A stretch of DNA of 64,000 nucleotides from Caldimonas tepidiphila. GTDB taxonomy: Bacteria; Pseudomonadota; Gammaproteobacteria; Burkholderiales; Burkholderiaceae_C. The stretch covers positions 1-64,000 of the forward strand of contig NZ_QXMG01000003.1 in NCBI RefSeq assembly GCF_003569765.1, in the 5' to 3' direction. How positions within the stretch are numbered: position 1 is the stretch's first letter; every line of letters begins with the position of its first letter. Made by a program: the position numbers and the translations under genes. Below are positions 17,371 through 40,708 of the stretch, one piece after another. The notes below the pieces were generated by a model. The model made no database searches and had not been told where the DNA came from. It saw nothing but the letters and a program-made list of their open reading frames with translations.

Positions 17371-17465
17371 CACAACTCCACCCCCATGAGGCGAGCGAGG
17401 CCTTCGGCGAGCGCAACGACGGCGCCGATGACGCCGAAGGCGGTCAGCAGGATCTCGATCAGCAC
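17370..17465 (-). CDS. Tiny membrane protein (31 residues)
   Basis: GTG 17465 to TGA 17372-17370. Nearly the whole product is one hydrophobic helix (VLIEILLTAFGVIGAVVALA). The start lies seven bases inside the end of the Rha gene and the stop overlaps the next ATG. It is the first of three very small membrane proteins in a row. Its function is unknown. Confidence 0.45.
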   Translation of the reverse strand: MLIEILLTAFGVIGAVVALAEGLARLMGVEL

Positions 17466-17989
17466 GCTCGGCCTCCTTCGAACCGATCGAACGGCAGGCG
17501 GGGCTGGATGGCGGCGGCAAGCCGCGTACGCTCGGAGACGATCGCCGGGATCTCGCGCTTGCGCTCAAGCATCAGCTGCGAGCCGATGGACGCGCGCGCC
17601 TTGGAGCCCTGCTCGCGCGCCTCGAGGGCGAGGAACTGCTGCCACAGGCCGAGGTGCTGCTGCTGGAGCTGCTCGGCCATGGTGTTGAAGGCCTCCAGGA
17701 AGGCCCGCTTCCACTGGTTGGCCCGCCGGCCGGTGAAGCCCATGGCCACGAAGGCGAAGCCGTCCTTCGTCAGGCGGTACTCCGGCACCGCGCGGCCGGT
17801 CGGGTCGGTGTATGTGCTGAACGCAAAATTGCGCTCAGTGAAGCTGCGCATCTCCGGATCGGCCAGCAAGGCCCGGATGGCGCGCAGCACATCCGCGTGT
17901 CGCTTGCCAAAGCGCTCCGCGACGATGCGCGAAGTAGTGGTCGGCTCCGCACCCTCGGGGGTGACGAGCAGGGGGGTCCTGAGGTCCAT
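17459..17989 (-). CDS. Rha family phage regulatory protein
   Basis: A 176-residue protein whose N-terminal half carries the Rha domain (TTSRIVAERFGKRHADVLRA, then YRLTKDGFAFVAMGFTGRRA). The C-terminal half is helical and Gln-rich. Rha proteins occur in many temperate phages and interfere with growth in some hosts lacking IHF. The molecular role is unclear. It lies early in the rightward operon, where a regulator of phage development would be expected. Confidence 0.85.
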   Translation of the reverse strand: MDLRTPLLVTPEGAEPTTTSRIVAERFGKRHADVLRAIRALLADPEMRSFTERNFAFSTYTDPTGRAVPEYRLTKDGFAFVAMGFTGRRANQWKRAFLEAFNTMAEQLQQQHLGLWQQFLALEAREQGSKARASIGSQLMLERKREIPAIVSERTRLAAAIQPRLPFDRFEGGRAC

Positions 17990-18718: not shown

Positions 18719-19126
18719 TCACGCCCCCTCCCCTGCGTGCACCGCCGCCTCATGCGCGCGGCGCGCTCCCTTGCGACGCTCCTCGCTTCTGCGCTCGCGC
18801 TCCCGCCGGTCCCCACCGCTGCGCTTCTCCGGCATGCGTGCCTGCACCCCCTGCTCAGGGGGAGGCGTGTCGGGGGTGGGCGGGGGGAGGATGGGGGTGG
18901 AGGTGGGCTGGTCACGAAGAACGCCCCAGGGGATGTCCGGCCGCAGTTGCTCGCACGTTACGGGCTCCCCCCGCTTACGGGTGAAGTGCTCAATGCCGGG
19001 GCAGTACTCGGCGGGGACTCGGCCGCGCGCCTTCCACATGCTCGGCGCACTCTGCGCCACGCCCAGGGCGCCCGCCAAAGCGGAGACGCCGCCGGCGATC
19101 TGGATTGCTCTTTCAAGGGGAGTCAT
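18719..19126 (-). CDS. YdaS/Cro-like repressor
   Basis: A 135-residue protein. The first 70 residues (AIQIAGGVSALAGALGVAQS, SMWKARGRVPAEYCPGIEHF) form the YdaS/Cro-type helix-turn-helix. The remainder is Pro-rich then strongly basic (ERERRSEERRKGARR). It is the first gene of the leftward (minus) operon and faces cI across shared operators. That is the Cro position, so it probably represses the lysogeny promoter. The basic tail is unusually long for a Cro protein. Confidence 0.8.
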   Translation of the reverse strand: MTPLERAIQIAGGVSALAGALGVAQSAPSMWKARGRVPAEYCPGIEHFTRKRGEPVTCEQLRPDIPWGVLRDQPTSTPILPPPTPDTPPPEQGVQARMPEKRSGGDRRERERRSEERRKGARRAHEAAVHAGEGA

Positions 19127-19192: not shown

Positions 19193-19210
19193 TCTAATCA
19201 CGGATGTGAA
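19193..19210 (+). promoter_or_regulatory. Candidate cI promoter -10 and degenerate operator OR3
   Basis: TCTAAT at 19193-19198 would place the start of transcription at about 19205, i.e. on the GTG at 19206, giving a leaderless cI mRNA as in lambda. ATCACG GA TGTGAA at 19197-19210 is a weak third operator that covers the start codon and could allow negative autoregulation. Both are inferred from position. Confidence 0.45.
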
Positions 19211-19853
19211 AACATTCCCAGAACGCCTGAAGTGGGCACGAGAACGAAAGAAGTGGAGCCAGGCGGAGCTGGGGAGGCGGGCTGGCCTGTCTCAGGGCGC
19301 CATCGGGAACTACGAGAAGGGCGAGCGCGACGAGCCGCGCAACCTGATCCAGCTTGCCGAGGCCTTGGGGGTCCACCCCAAGTGGCTACTGAAGGGCACT
19401 GGGCCCAGGGATGTTGGAGAGCCTTCTAACGTTGCCCCCGCCGCCATCGGCACCCGCAAGATCCCGCTGATCAGCTATGTCCAGGCCGGCCAGATGGCCG
19501 AGGGCCTCGACTTCGGTGGAGAGCTGGAGTACCTGCTGACTGACCTTGATCTCGGGGAACACGCCTTCGCGCTGGAGATCAAGGGCGACTCGATGCTGCC
19601 GGAGTTCAAGCCGGGCGACCGCATCATCGTGGACCCGGATGTAGCGCCGCTACCGGGGGACTTCGTGGTGGCGAAGAACGGATCCCACGAGGCGACGTTC
19701 AAGAAGTACCGGCCGCGCGGCATCAGCATTACCGGCAAAACCATATTTGAATTGGTTCCGCTGAACGAGGACTACGAATCAATGCGGTCCGACGAGACCC
19801 CGATTTCAATTGTCGGCACCATGGTCGAGCACCGGAAATACCGCCGCAGGTAG
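19206..19853 (+). CDS. CI-like prophage repressor (HTH plus S24 autoprotease)
   Basis: A 215-residue protein. The HTH is at about residues 18-55 (SQAELGRRAGLSQGAIGNYE). An Ala94-Gly95 cleavage site lies in SYVQAGQ. The S24 peptidase has Ser129 in KGDSMLPEF and a Lys at about 166 in HEATFKKY. RecA-stimulated self-cleavage would induce the prophage. GTG 19206 is chosen because it starts the conserved MKTFPERLKWARERKKW block. No ribosome binding site is visible, consistent with leaderless translation. The open frame runs further upstream through the operator and antisense of cro. Confidence 0.9.
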   Translation: MKTFPERLKWARERKKWSQAELGRRAGLSQGAIGNYEKGERDEPRNLIQLAEALGVHPKWLLKGTGPRDVGEPSNVAPAAIGTRKIPLISYVQAGQMAEGLDFGGELEYLLTDLDLGEHAFALEIKGDSMLPEFKPGDRIIVDPDVAPLPGDFVVAKNGSHEATFKKYRPRGISITGKTIFELVPLNEDYESMRSDETPISIVGTMVEHRKYRRR

Positions 19854-19889: not shown

Positions 19890-20204
19890 ATGTTTCCCAA
19901 AAAAATATCGACATCCATATTGCTCTCCATCGCCTCTCTCGCGTTTGCAAATGAGCCCGTCAAAGTAAAGCCGCCAGAACACAAAGTTCTCTCATCTCCT
20001 GGGGGGAGATTCGTATTTGGGCAAGTTTCAGAATACAGGAGAGATCAATATCTACTGGACACACAAACCGGACGACTATGGCGGATGGTGGCGATTCCTG
20101 CGAAAAATCGTGACGGTAGCAACTCCAGCTCAGAAACAATCGATGCCTTGGACTGGGTCCCATTCGTAGAGGGGAGCGGCGAATTCAGCAGGGCTCCTCG
20201 GTAA
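19890..20204 (+). CDS. Secreted small protein, prophage cargo
   Basis: A 104-residue protein with a clear signal peptide (MFPKKISTSILLSIASLAFA, cleavage likely after AFA). The mature part is rich in charged and aromatic residues (FVFGQVSEYRRDQYLLDTQT, GRLWRMVAIP). The gene and its flanks are much AT-richer than the phage core (AATTAATAATATTC just upstream), a sign of recent acquisition. It lies directly after cI on the same strand, so it may be expressed in the lysogen. No family is recognised. Confidence 0.65.
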   Translation: MFPKKISTSILLSIASLAFANEPVKVKPPEHKVLSSPGGRFVFGQVSEYRRDQYLLDTQTGRLWRMVAIPAKNRDGSNSSSETIDALDWVPFVEGSGEFSRAPR

Positions 20205-20647: not shown

Positions 20648-20959
20648 GACTTCGACGAGCGCAGCCGCCCGCACCTGGCGCAAATGTGCTTCCAGCAGGC
20701 GGCCGAGGTGTGCCAGCAGACGCTGGACCGCTACAGCCGCAGCGTGGCGTGGGCAAGCTGCGATGGAAAAGACGCCAGCACCGAATAGCTGCGCGCCGGC
20801 ATGGTGTGGGCCTACCGGAAGTACCTGACGGATGGGGCGCTGCTCGAGGTCGAAGTCGAGAGTGAGGCACGCGCAGAGCGGCGCGAGCTGGGGGCAGATC
20901 CAGAACCGGTGCCGCCGTGGGAGTGGCGGTCATTGAAGCAACGTCAGCAGGAGCGTTGA
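20648..20959 (+). pseudogene. Thermonuclease (SNase-type) remnant with in-frame stop
   Basis: One frame reads DFDERSRPHLAQMCFQQAAE, then TLDRYSRSVAWASCDGKDAS, a TAG at 20786-20788, then LRAGMVWAYRKYLTDGALLE and the family ending ADPEPVPPWEWR. Staphylococcal-type nucleases carry Gln before the LRAGM motif, so the TAG looks like a CAG-to-TAG nonsense change. The N-terminal part, with the first catalytic Arg, is missing at the repeat copy 20615-20647. The gene is therefore doubly broken. Confidence 0.8.
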
Positions 20960-21418
20960 TTGCAGCACATACCAGAAGCAGAGGCGAGGGCCCTGCTGGC
21001 AGAGCCTCTCATCTGCGAAGACTGCCCTGACTGGGAGCACGAGAAGACGCAGCCGCACTCGCTCTCCACAGAAACTGGATTGGTGGACGCGGACGGGATA
21101 CGGACCGGCCTCCATGTGAAGCTGATCTTCAGTAGGAGCCCGTCCACAGGGATCGTGCGGCACATCTTCACGGTGTACAAGCGGAATCCGTGGGGATTGA
21201 CCAGGGTCTACCAGCTTGAGGTCTCCAAGTGGAAGAAGCATCAGCCCAAGGACAAGCACCAGCTCTCACACGAGCACATCGGCAGGTCACGCACAGAAGG
21301 GGATGCATCTTGGAGCCACTGGACTTACGATGAGATCATCGTCCACTTCTGCCGACAAACAAACATCACTTTCAAGCCGCCCCTCTCACATCCTGAAGAC
21401 TTCAGGCTACGGGGATGA
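20960..21418 (+). CDS. Cargo protein, possible DUF6978 family
   Basis: A 152-residue protein read from TTG 20960 (MQHIPEAEARALLAEPLICE). A Cys pair (CEDC) near residue 20 and the segments VKLIFSRSPSTGIVRHIFTV and HIGRSR are visible. It resembles proteins I recall as DUF6978, which often precede DUF1828 proteins; this recollection is uncertain. The stop overlaps the next ATG by four bases, so the two form one unit. GC content is lower than in the phage core. Its function is unknown, and exclusion of other phages is plausible from position. Confidence 0.6.
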   Translation: MQHIPEAEARALLAEPLICEDCPDWEHEKTQPHSLSTETGLVDADGIRTGLHVKLIFSRSPSTGIVRHIFTVYKRNPWGLTRVYQLEVSKWKKHQPKDKHQLSHEHIGRSRTEGDASWSHWTYDEIIVHFCRQTNITFKPPLSHPEDFRLRG

Positions 21419-22176
21419 ACATCATGATCTGCTCAAGTCTTCCGTCCATCACTGGCCTTGAGTGCCACCCCATCAACGACGATGGGTCCGTGGCCATGAT
21501 AGAGACTGCCTTTTGCTTTGAGGATGGCGATAGCTTTCCTGTTTACGTTCAAAAAATTGGCGGTCAAGTAAGATTTTTTGATGACGGCGGGGTGCTGCTG
21601 CACTTCATGGGGCGGGGTCTGCAATTTGAAAACCATAGGCGGACAAGGTTCATAAAAGCTGCAGGGGAGCCGTTCGGGGTTTCGCTGAACGAAATCGGTG
21701 AGTTCGAAATATGGGCTCCGGCTGATAAAGCGCCAACTGCATTCTCGAACTACATTTCAGCCCTTGTTTCAATCACCTCTTGGGAGAAGCAGCAGGTCGG
21801 CACCCAGATTGACATAGCCCACTTCATAGACGAAGTTGGCTTGTACTTGAGGGCATGGAAGCCTAAGGCAAACTTACGGCCAGAGCCGCAGTACACAGGC
21901 ATCTCTGGCAACACTTACACGCTGGACTTCGACCTAGATGGCAAAGCCGTCGTTGCGATCACTACGCACCCCAATTCTGTTAGCTCTGCGCTCAGGAAGC
22001 TTCTTGACATCAGAAGCTCTCCAGCCAACAGTAAACTTCAAACGCTAGTGGTGCTTGATGATAGATTTGATCAAGAAGCAGCCAAACGGGAATCCTTGGT
22101 GCTTGAATCAGTAGCCAGCGTTCTTCCAATGACTCGGCTGCAAAAGAATGCAGGCTCAAGTCAGAGAGCTCAGTAA
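21415..22176 (+). CDS. DUF1828/DUF1829-type protein, second gene of cargo pair
   Basis: A 253-residue protein. Residues about 30-75 (DGDSFPVYVQKIGGQVRFFD, then GGVLLHFMGRG) match the DUF1828 domain, and the C-terminal 120 residues fit the companion DUF1829 domain (LVVLDDRFDQEAAKRESLV). Base composition is near 50 percent GC, far below the neighbours, pointing to transfer. ATG 21415 overlaps the previous stop. A rho-independent terminator follows. Family function is unknown. Occurrence as a pair downstream of cI recalls rexAB. Confidence 0.7.
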   Translation: MNIMICSSLPSITGLECHPINDDGSVAMIETAFCFEDGDSFPVYVQKIGGQVRFFDDGGVLLHFMGRGLQFENHRRTRFIKAAGEPFGVSLNEIGEFEIWAPADKAPTAFSNYISALVSITSWEKQQVGTQIDIAHFIDEVGLYLRAWKPKANLRPEPQYTGISGNTYTLDFDLDGKAVVAITTHPNSVSSALRKLLDIRSSPANSKLQTLVVLDDRFDQEAAKRESLVLESVASVLPMTRLQKNAGSSQRAQ

Positions 22177-22185
22177 GCGCCAAAA

Positions 22186-22209
22186 GGCCCGCCTCGCGCG
22201 GGCTTTTTT
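22186..22209 (+). terminator. Rho-independent terminator after the cargo pair
   Basis: Stem GCCCGC (22187-22192) and GCGGGC (22198-22203) with a five-base loop, followed by six T residues. It lies ten bases after the DUF1828 gene and ends the lysogeny-side transcription unit. Confidence 0.88.
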
Positions 22210-22241
22210 GCGCCCGGCATCAGGCCAAGGCGCGGTAGCGC

Positions 22242-22538: not shown

Positions 22539-22736
22539 TCAGGCCGCCTCTCGGTGCTCCACGTGCAGCGGCCACGCGCCGCACTTGCGCGCCTCCAGGA
22601 TCACCATCTCCACGACCGAGCCGTCCTCCGCGTAGCTGACGCAGGTGTTCCAGTCCTGCAGGCCCTCGCGCACGATCGGCTTGCTCGACAGCCGCATCAC
22701 CAGCGTGTCGTCGGCCTCAAGGTAGGTGATCCTCAC
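22539..22736 (-). CDS. DUF2283 family protein
   Basis: A 65-residue protein (MRITYLEADDTLVMRLSSKP, then DGSVVEMVILEARK) matching the compact DUF2283/YuzE-type fold. GTG 22736 overlaps the antitoxin stop (GTGA), so it is the coupled third gene of the toxin-antitoxin operon. The family often sits beside toxin genes. Its own role is not established. Confidence 0.7.
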   Translation of the reverse strand: MRITYLEADDTLVMRLSSKPIVREGLQDWNTCVSYAEDGSVVEMVILEARKCGAWPLHVEHREAA

Positions 22737-23035
22737 GAGCGCCCCTCTTGCGTCGCCGGCCGCGCGGCAAGTCGCACGCCAAGCGCGCTCATGACCCGCA
22801 GCATGGTGTCGAAGCGCGGCTTCGCGCCCGGCGTCAGTGCCTTGTAGAGGCTCTCGCGGCCGAGCCCAGCGTCCTGCGCGACCTGGGCCATGCCGCGCGC
22901 CTTGGCGATGTGCCCCACCGCCTCGAGGAATTCGTCAGGGTCGCCATCGGCGAGCACCTGGCTGAGGTACTCGGCCACCGCCTCCTCGCTATCAAGGTAG
23001 CGCGCGATGTCGAAGGGGATGAGCTTCTCTGCCAT
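22733..23035 (-). CDS. Antitoxin with XRE-type HTH (addiction module antidote)
   Basis: A 100-residue protein. The N-terminus (MAEKLIPFDIARYLDSEEAV) and the HTH (ARGMAQVAQDAGLGRESLYK, then ALTPGAKPRFDTMLRV) are diagnostic of the antidote family paired with Gp49/HigB-like toxins. It would neutralise the toxin and, through the HTH, repress the operon with it. Its start is two bases after the toxin stop; the toxin-first order is normal for this family. Confidence 0.85.
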   Translation of the reverse strand: MAEKLIPFDIARYLDSEEAVAEYLSQVLADGDPDEFLEAVGHIAKARGMAQVAQDAGLGRESLYKALTPGAKPRFDTMLRVMSALGVRLAARPATQEGRS

Positions 23036-23037
23036 GA

Positions 23038-23328
23038 CTACAGCTCCTTGGCGATCTGCTTGGCGCGCCGGATATCGCGCTCCTGGCTGACCTTGTCGCC
23101 TCCAGCCAGCACCACGATGACATGGCCGCCGCGCTGCACGAAGTACACGCGGTAGCCTGCCCCCACATCCACGCGCAGCTCGGACACGCCCTCGCCGACC
23201 GCCTTCGCGTCGCCCAGGTTGCCGGCGCGCACCCGGTCAAGCCGCCGAGCGATGGCGATGCGCGCGCGCAGGTCGCGTAAGTCCGCGAGCCAGTCGCTGA
23301 AGCTCTCGGTGAGCTGCACGGTGAACAT
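23038..23328 (-). CDS. RelE/ParE-family toxin
   Basis: A 96-residue protein starting MFTVQLTESFSDWLADLRDL. Typical features are RRLDRVRAGNLGDAKAVGEG, LRVDVGAGYRVYFVQRG and the C-terminal RRAKQIAKEL. Related toxins cut mRNA on ribosomes or block gyrase; which applies here is not visible. ATG 23328 is chosen over an upstream ATG because that extension would run through the palindromic operator at 23338-23353. Confidence 0.85.
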   Translation of the reverse strand: MFTVQLTESFSDWLADLRDLRARIAIARRLDRVRAGNLGDAKAVGEGVSELRVDVGAGYRVYFVQRGGHVIVVLAGGDKVSQERDIRRAKQIAKEL

Positions 23329-23337
23329 TGCCCGATG

Positions 23338-23353
23338 GTATCCGATCGGATAC
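23338..23353. promoter_or_regulatory. Perfect 16-base palindrome, toxin-antitoxin operator
   Basis: GTATCCGATCGGATAC is its own reverse complement and lies ten bases upstream of the toxin start. Another GATAC half-site follows at about 23362. Autoregulation by an HTH antitoxin at such a site is the rule for these modules. Confidence 0.75.
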
Positions 23354-23406
23354 AGGCGATGCGATACCCCCAATGCAATGTGCACATCCCAATGTGCGGC
23401 AGGCCC

Positions 23407-39634: not shown

Positions 39635-40564
39635 ATGACCCGCTCCCCCGCCCGCCCCTACCGCGGCGTGTTCCCGGTGGTGCCCACCACCTTCACCGAG
39701 TCCGGCGCGCTGGACCTCGACAGCCAGAAGCGCTGCCTCGACTTCATGATCGAGGCGGGCTCCGACGGCCTGTGCATCCTCGCCAACTTCTCCGAGCAGT
39801 TCGTGCTGTCCGACGAGGAGCGCGAGCTGCTGACCGAGGCCGCGCTGCGCCACGTGGCCGGCCGCGTGCCGGTGATCGTCACCACCACGCACTTCTCCAC
39901 CCGGGTCTGCATCGAGCGCAGCCGGCGCGCGCAGGCGATGGGCGCGGCGATGCTGATGGTGATGCCGCCCTACCATGGCGCGACGATCCGCGTGCCGCCG
40001 CAACAGATCCACGAGTTCTACGCGCGGCTCTCGGACGCGGTGTCCATCCCGATCATGATCCAGGACGCGCCGGTGGCCGGCACGCCGATGACGGCCGAGT
40101 TCCTCGCCCGCATGGCACGCGAGATCGAGCATGTCGCCTACTTCAAGATCGAGACCGCCGGCGCCGCGGCGAAGCTGCGCGAGCTGATCCGGCTCGGCGG
40201 CGACGCGATCGAGGGCCCGTGGGACGGCGAGGAGGCGATCACGCTGCTGCCCGACCTCGACGCGGGCGCCACCGGCGCGATGACCGGCGGCGCCTATCCG
40301 GACGGCATCCGCACCATCATCGACCCCTACCTCGCCGGCCGGCGCGAGGAGGCGGTCGCCGCCTACCAGCGCTGGCTGCCGCTGATCAACTACGAGAACC
40401 GCCAGGCCGGCCTGCTGGCAGCCAAGGCGCTGATGAAGGAAGGCGGCGTGATCGATTGCGACGCACCGCGCCACCCCTTCCCTGCCCTGCATCCCGAGAC
40501 CCGCGCCGGCCTGCTCGACGCCGCGCGCCGGCTCGACCCGATGGTGCTGCGCTGGGGCCGCTGA
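39635..40564 (+). CDS. DHDPS-fold dehydratase, probable 2-keto-3-deoxypentonate dehydratase
   Basis: A 309-residue TIM-barrel protein of the dihydrodipicolinate synthase/NAL family. Visible features are GVFPVVPTTFTESGALDLDS, MVMPPYHGATI (active Tyr), VAYFKIET (Schiff-base Lys) and GATGAMTGGAYPDG. In the locus context (aldonate dehydratase, semialdehyde dehydrogenase) the best fit is removal of water from 2-keto-3-deoxy-arabonate or -xylonate to give 2-oxoglutarate semialdehyde. An aldolase role cannot be excluded from sequence. Confidence 0.82.
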   Translation: MTRSPARPYRGVFPVVPTTFTESGALDLDSQKRCLDFMIEAGSDGLCILANFSEQFVLSDEERELLTEAALRHVAGRVPVIVTTTHFSTRVCIERSRRAQAMGAAMLMVMPPYHGATIRVPPQQIHEFYARLSDAVSIPIMIQDAPVAGTPMTAEFLARMAREIEHVAYFKIETAGAAAKLRELIRLGGDAIEGPWDGEEAITLLPDLDAGATGAMTGGAYPDGIRTIIDPYLAGRREEAVAAYQRWLPLINYENRQAGLLAAKALMKEGGVIDCDAPRHPFPALHPETRAGLLDAARRLDPMVLRWGR

Positions 40565-40708
40565 CGAAGGCCCCGGCCCCTTCCCGGGCGGCCCAGTCCC
40601 GCCCCCGGGGGGACCGGTCGCCTCGGCCCGCGGGGGCTGTCAGGGTGGCTGGCAGCGCCCCTGTCCCACTGCCCTGGGACGGCTGCGGTGGTGGGATACG
40701 GAACCTTC

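Follow-up and report, generated by a model that had tools for sequence, protein, structure and literature searches.

Two overlapping genes, ORF-A and ORF-B, lie 3' of a cI-type repressor gene in the window, by which we mean the whole stretch of 64,000 nucleotides of Caldimonas tepidiphila DNA that was analysed. Judging from profile comparisons, the pair is a divergent phage branch of PDC-M24, a PADLOC candidate, since the profiles of the phage A and B proteins align with those of the chromosomal A and B proteins; it is not a called member of PDC-M24. The sequence-only reading of this DNA had put the cassette forward as an undescribed system; the word 'undescribed' fails, because a public candidate model, PDC-M24, exists and corresponds to the chromosomal branch. 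The context supports a lysogen-borne exclusion module. We consider an anti-phage role of the cassette probable and infer that it would stop other phages; the fuller proposal of a prophage-borne two-protein anti-phage (superinfection-exclusion) module, with the roles of the two proteins left open, has in our judgement about an even chance of being right.

Results

A translationally coupled gene pair of low G+C content downstream of cI

The cassette and the elements that frame it are the following.

19206-19853, plus strand: cI-type repressor (HTH_3 and Peptidase_S24), 1.1 kb 5' of the cassette
20949-20953, plus strand: AGGAG, probable ribosome-binding site of ORF-A, 6 nt 5' of the TTG
20960-21418, plus strand: ORF-A, TTG start, 152 aa, DUF6978-like (phrog_2017), candidate effector
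21415-22176, plus strand: ORF-B, ATG start, 253 aa, DUF1828 (phrog_1960, distant PDC-M24B), candidate sensor/neutraliser
22178-22212, plus strand: Rho-independent terminator at the cassette end, recognised by folding energy and shuffles

Several features that had been read from the letters alone were confirmed. Both reading frames are present at these coordinates and meet in an ATGA junction, with a 4-base overlap. Their markedly lower G+C content is also real: it amounts to 57.5% in ORF-A, 50.4% in ORF-B and 53.2% over both, as compared with 61.9% in the cI reading frame and 68.0% in the presumed prophage (3-32179 of the window), and 0 of 1256 blocks of the length of A+B sampled in the window had a G+C content as low. 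The extent of the prophage, about 3-32179, is an estimate taken from a 32,177-base IMG/VR viral contig that carries the cassette, if the two are collinear. The terminator at the end of the cassette is indeed strong (-21.4 kcal/mol, z = -3.06), none of 200 shuffles being equally stable; it was absent from the output of a simple terminator scan. That the two genes are chance reading frames could be excluded, because homologues of both exist and stay paired.

The claim that the cassette occupies the rexAB position held in part. The genes are on the same strand as cI and 3' of it, and in Escherichia phage ev207 the gene order cI - A - B - N corresponds exactly to the rexAB slot, but in the window the correspondence is loose, a gap of about 1.1 kb separating cI from ORF-A. 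In this gap there are two ORFs, a small one that looks exported and one of 78 aa, and a remnant that resembles a nuclease gene. The start codon of cI (GTG at 19206) was our choice. Divergent from cI lies a gene of the phrog_35 phage repressor family (18719-19126, minus strand), which is Cro-like by its position.

ORF-B is a DUF1828 protein and ORF-A a distant relative of DUF6978

The assignment of ORF-B to DUF1828 (PF08861) stood, residues 31-120 matching this family at E = 1.2e-11 with 45.1 bits, above the gathering cut-off of 22. ORF-B also matched phrog_1960 (1.9e-54) and, over residues 25-219, the PADLOC model PDC-M24B (6.6e-13). The N-terminal DUF1828 domain, which contains an invariant Asp56, is followed by a C-terminal DUF1829-related domain. 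DUF1829 was not detected in ORF-B by Pfam at E up to 1; this family (PF08862) was matched in 3 of 11 aligned B proteins, to which the protein of the window is linked only through profile alignment. The phage B profile aligned with the chromosomal B profile over 221 columns (97%, E = 1.2e-10).

ORF-A had no match in Pfam, NCBIfam or PADLOC at E up to 1, and a weak one in PHROG (phrog_2017, 9.9e-7). It stayed below the gathering cut-off of DUF6978 (PF22398; 29.6 bits), giving no match to this family, and none was found in the window's own genome either. The earlier label 'DUF6978-like' is therefore correct as a distant relation seen by profile-profile comparison, but not as a direct Pfam match: hhalign matched the phage A profile, along 136 columns, to one built from nine chromosomal A proteins (94%, E = 1.3e-7), three of these nine having been scanned with Pfam and found to be DUF6978, and the negative control, the A profile against the B profile, gave 0.1%. 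When ten A relatives were compared with Pfam, three chromosomal ones (L038, L041 and L043) matched DUF6978 at 6e-42 to 2e-44, gp49 of ev207 matched it at 2.2e-4, below the cut-off, and six had no match. A tblastn search of phage records with ORF-A returned none at E ≤ 0.01.

Predicted structures and conserved residues

The predicted structure of ORF-A (pLDDT 88, pTM 0.85) is mainly beta and comprises, in this order, a helix, a meander of beta-strands, a loop and hairpin on which the conserved histidines lie, and two helices. His104 is invariant (11/11 and 22/22 aligned proteins), His94 and His106 are conserved at more than 90% in the set of 11 proteins but not in the set of 22, and Phe130 and Asn135 are further conserved residues. 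Foldseek found no PDB structure below E = 0.2 for ORF-A and, in BFVD, a single entry at E ≤ 0.001, an unnamed phage protein (A0A8S5NGZ0, 1.2e-10). Atg10 entries recurred in the list of weak matches, but with TM-scores of 0.21-0.27, and an E2/UBC-like fold is not claimed. Sequence-profile searches of the PDB with A and B, using mixed and chromosomal sets, returned only matches at E of 0.25 or worse.

ORF-B was predicted as two mixed alpha/beta domains (pLDDT 83, pTM 0.50). Its fold matches were weak (E 1e-2 to 4e-1, the best being 1.3e-2) and included R2 retrotransposon proteins, FANCM-FAAP24, the XPB-Bax1 complex, XPF, MUS81-EME1 and ERCC1, alongside entries of unrelated fold, small GTPases and thioredoxins among them. 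Residues 134-252 are predicted to run helix, strands, helix and strand, an order that would fit the alpha-beta-beta-beta-alpha-beta core of PD-(D/E)xK proteins, the pTM of the model being only 0.50, and we infer that the nuclease-like matches would belong to this C-terminal half. Among the columns listed, Asp56 is conserved in 36/36, Gly162 in 34/36 and Asp198 in 32/36 B proteins. Conservation at Asp171 stays below 70%, and the ev207 protein has a Pro there. A canonical PD-(D/E)xK active site in B was rejected: the conserved D...(D/E)xK set is absent, Asp171 being variable.

The two genes are nearly always found together

The sequence-only reading had treated A and B as a unit, and their homologues are indeed paired. 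A lies directly 5' of B in 51/51 contig loci (L044-L094), the window's own locus being excluded. These loci came from scans of viral and genome contigs, and many of them are near-identical, 17 sharing one A protein; they represent 24 different A proteins and 25 different B proteins. The junction is a 4-nt overlap in 29 of the 51 and a 1-nt overlap in 16. In separately drawn sets of 300 genomes of the order, B adjoined A at all 14 places found with the A profile, and A was present at all 11 places found with DUF1828, the window being included in both counts. Among the whole-genome loci, A stood beside B in 21/23, L039 and L040 being without an A recognisable by profile; in one locus (L103) B is short (137 aa). 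A search for DUF6978 in 299 genomes matched three, which corresponded to an intact pair, a broken one (L106) and a weak DUF6978-like match (L107) for which the profiles found neither partner. At L106 the DUF6978/DUF1828 pair is in pieces, indicating that the module also decays.

The A-B system is rare in the genomes surveyed: phrog_1960 was matched in 6/150 genomes of the family and 9/398 of the phylum, counting partial matches along with the genome that holds the window. A DNA search of 60 relatives gave only short partial matches and no further copy of the cassette, and a viral scan with the type represented by L036, L037 and L039 found no relatives. By tblastn, eight phage records contained a relative of B; in the three that were opened (a Helicobacter pametensis prophage, Escherichia phage ev207 and Acinetobacter phage Acba_11) A directly precedes B and a repressor gene is 5' of the pair. 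The ev207 pair was found in 239 of 5426 complete E. coli genomes, always in the chromosome and with at least 99% identity, in a search that sees close copies only; near-identical pairs covered over at least 80% are present in 237 of these 5426, including that of the probiotic strain Nissle 1917.

Median dN/dS values among 12 relatives of the ev207 type were 0.11 for A and 0.08 for B, calculated from the 30/66 (A) and 15/66 (B) pairs for which dS was computable and greater than 0.05; these values are rough because dS is near saturation. They suggest that purifying selection maintains both genes in the ev207 type, the copy in the window being without a close relative.

The pair accompanies repressor genes of unrelated sequence

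Recurrence beside repressors, also expected from the earlier reading, was observed, a repressor gene being located at most 1.1 kb 5' of the pair in 49/51 contig loci. Sorted by their nearest phage, and not by host, these comprise the ev207 type, with a repressor 5' in 31/31 loci at 29-206 nt; the Acinetobacter type, with 15/17 at 65-1086 nt, the remaining two being L083, at a contig edge, and L087, with 1.2 kb upstream; and three others, with 3/3. Pfam analysis of 30 upstream proteins (from 26 locus representatives, the three phage records and the window) identified Peptidase_S24 in 30/30 and HTH_3 in 29/30. The remaining upstream repressors were assigned by near-identity or phmmer, except at L073 and L075, of the ev207 type, where they are short HTH proteins recognised by eye.

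The repressor varies independently of the module. In L069, L070 and L071 the B proteins are 97-99% identical and the CI proteins 15-23% identical; in 12 loci of the Acinetobacter type, B proteins at least 95% identical are distributed over five CI clusters. Module and repressor, as these identities indicate, recombine. We considered whether A and B might make contact with one particular CI; this was rejected since the CI partners are unrelated, and a specific contact is unlikely because the module stays the same while the neighbouring repressors share only 15-23% identity or, in two loci, are short HTH proteins. One genome of Avibacterium paragallinarum contains two A-B copies (L044 and L045), with different repressors that are 44% identical. 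Among the whole-genome loci, a CI-like gene was found in only 2 of the 13 scanned for it (L033 and L034).

Chromosomal relatives match PDC-M24 and adjoin defence genes

Two chromosomal pairs, L038 and L043, matched the PADLOC models PDC-M24A (2e-56 and 1.5e-52) and PDC-M24B (1.2e-103 and 1.5e-107). Gp49 of ev207 matched PDC-M24A at 4.8e-4, the A proteins of L033, L034 and L036 had no PADLOC match, and for ORF-A of the window the PDC-M24A models gave no match up to E = 1. With its A protein outside all PADLOC models, the pair is probably missed by PADLOC, and current defence models seem to miss the phage branch.

Ten of the 23 whole-genome loci have defence genes as neighbours (L037, L038, L039, L041, L042, L043, L096, L097, L098 and L100). 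PADLOC analysis of 20 neighbour proteins from these ten identified type I restriction-modification genes or fragments (HsdM, HsdS or HsdR) at L038, L041, L042, L043, L096, L097, L098 and L100. It also identified a type IIG restriction-modification gene at L037, BrxC at L039 (where A is missing), HerA at L100 and PrimPol at L041 and L042, as well as the candidates PDC-S02 at L042 and a PDC-S19 fragment at L098. The siting beside defence genes that the sequence-only reading had looked for thus recurs, but the ten loci being all defence-linked is not an unbiased rate, because they were picked by eye, from 23, as defence-looking; the sample gives neither a frequency nor an enrichment. At some chromosomal copies, among them L031, L032, L103 and L104, no defence island or prophage neighbours were visible on inspection.

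Further genes were noted at some of these loci. In L097 (7-3226), DarT and DarG are directly 3' of the pair, with the last part of a type I restriction-enzyme gene 5' of it. Large PrimPol-like genes, TOTE-like by eye, lie 3' of the chromosomal pairs at L041 (3570-5924) and L042 (138-2495), and a gene that is similar to them by eye is present at L043 (6777-8813).

Discussion

How the cassette might act

Being 3' of the repressor gene on the same strand, the A-B cassette is presumably on in the lysogen. By analogy with the DUF1829 protein of HipAD, we propose that A is the effector and B the sensor/neutraliser, a tentative division of roles that we hold to be somewhat less likely than not and that may be the reverse. 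A would be a small single-domain effector with conserved histidines, kept inactive by B, whose DUF1829-type domain would bind nucleic acid. An incoming phage might disturb B through its DNA or RNA intermediates or through an inhibitor; A would then be released and growth of the infected cell would halt before the phage matures, that is, an abortive response.

A broader and more speculative hypothesis, which we think has a lesser though real chance of proving correct, is that temperate phages of Escherichia, Acinetobacter, Helicobacter, Avibacterium and the window's order share an interchangeable lysogen-defence cassette of a DUF6978-like and a DUF1828/1829 protein. This cassette would travel with the immunity region and swap repressors. 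On the phage side it would be either the forerunner or a derivative of a module kept by bacteria among restriction or BREX genes, perhaps to abort the cell as a fail-safe once first-line defences are subverted. If this were true, it would be a widespread analogue of lambda rexAB, made of proteins without detected relation to rexAB and tied to the immunity regions of temperate phages in several lineages, and a PADLOC candidate would become a testable system, copies of the ev207 pair being at hand in the 237 complete E. coli genomes mentioned above.

Alternative explanations

An addiction function is an unlikely alternative in our estimation: the pair would be a toxin-antitoxin module that stabilises the prophage, one partner poisoning the cell upon loss of the prophage or island, with no dedicated anti-phage role. 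Two small, translationally coupled and paired genes on mobile DNA would suit such a module, and the operon begins with a small protein, A, as in HigBA-type pairs. Yet proximity to a repressor, seen in nearly all contig loci, is not needed for addiction, and several chromosomal copies are not solitary but adjoin restriction-modification, BREX or DarTG genes. The toxin-antitoxin and anti-phage readings overlap, because modules of the toxin-antitoxin type are often defensive. In favour of the addiction reading is also that the related DUF1829 protein acts with a HipA-like toxin (PMC13092281). The proximity to repressors bears differently on the idea that A and B are a lysis-lysogeny accessory, modulating repressor function, immunity or induction and not acting on other phages; it speaks for this, together with a role of RexA in the lambda switch that was recently proposed, according to the accessible part of that paper (PMC11077077). 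We nevertheless find such a function improbable, given that the same module is combined with such dissimilar repressors and with short HTH proteins, that CI-like genes are scarce at the whole-genome loci scanned, and that ten chromosomal loci have defence-gene neighbours.

It is similarly doubtful, and to our minds improbable, that B is an active PD-(D/E)xK-type nuclease cutting invading DNA, with A as its specificity or licensing partner, in a restriction-like system housed in restriction-modification loci. The order of elements in the C-terminal domain, the repeated weak matches to R2 retrotransposon proteins, XPB-Bax1, MUS81-EME1, XPF and FANCM-FAAP24, and the type I and IIG restriction genes beside its relatives would all agree with this. 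Against it stand the lack of a conserved D...(D/E)xK set, with Asp171 conserved at less than 70% and a Pro in ev207, and the nature of several of the best fold matches, which we take to be inactive partners of the ERCC4 type.

Comparison with known systems

The window pair consists of the same two families as PDC-M24 (DUF6978 and DUF1828/DUF1829), in the same order and with the same coupling. It differs in that ORF-A is not recognised by the PDC-M24A models and DUF1829 is not detected in ORF-B by Pfam, and in that it is located 3' of cI in a prophage, whereas chromosomal pairs are found among restriction-modification or BREX genes. PADLOC PDC systems were found by guilt-by-embedding, and most of those in the core defensome still await validation, as stated in the part of the source at hand (PMC12988326); another prophage candidate, PDC-M63AB, showed no defence activity in a published test, of which an extract was consulted (PMC12409345). 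Our literature search found no publication on the A-B pair and no test of PDC-M24; most preprints and subscription journals fell outside its scope, and prior work may exist. Within the portions of the literature on DUF1828, DUF6978 and DUF1829 that were available, phage defence appeared only in the DUF1829 paper.

With lambda RexAB and RexAB-type systems the cassette shares the arrangement of two genes 3' of cI, which in ev207 are exactly between cI and N. We rejected its membership of this group, for which there was neither a family nor a fold match. The Pfam and PHROG matches of A and B (DUF1828, a chance-level match to CIS_tube, and families of unknown function) included no Rex-named family, and the 50 fold matches listed for each of the two proteins contained no RexA structure. 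In P. putida, PP_5643-5644 are of the RexAB type; four transmembrane segments are predicted for PP_5644, and RexB likewise resides in the membrane (PMC12894663). The predicted secondary structure of A is mainly beta and that of B mixed alpha/beta.

BstA, a prophage-encoded defence as the cassette probably is, consists of one protein only, and the domain of this protein is a different one. BstA is described as an abortive-infection protein of prophages in the available text (PMC8585504). HipAD (DS-6) is a validated defence system made of a HipA-like kinase and a DUF3037-DUF1829 protein, the latter predicted to bind both the kinase and DNA, as far as the sections available to us report (PMC13092281). 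The likeness resides in the C-terminal DUF1829-type domain of the partner protein, which in ORF-B is seen through profile alignment only. The cassette differs by having no kinase gene, an N-terminal DUF1828 domain instead of DUF3037, and a DUF6978-like partner.

Additional observations in the window

Directly 5' of ORF-A, at 20650-20959, is what appears by eye to be the remnant of a gene for a thermonuclease-like secreted protein, with an in-frame stop at about 20786. The 52-aa end of this remnant had no family match in Pfam, PADLOC, PHROG or NCBIfam, and its segment 20650-20810 was matched by two genomes of other genera with 67-68% identity. In the window (19890-20204), in L033 (3605-3919) and in L034 (4803-5201), the stretch from the repressor to the A-B pair includes a small ORF whose start resembles a signal peptide by eye; it is possibly another cargo gene expressed in the lysogen.

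Convergent with the cassette are a Gp49-type toxin and HI1420-type antidote (HigBA-like; 22733-23385, minus strand) and a DUF2283 gene (22539-22736, minus strand). The early region contains a gene for a Rha-type phage regulatory protein (17459-17989, minus strand). A tRNA-Gly (ccc) is located at 40545-40637, outside the stretch inferred for the IMG/VR viral contig.
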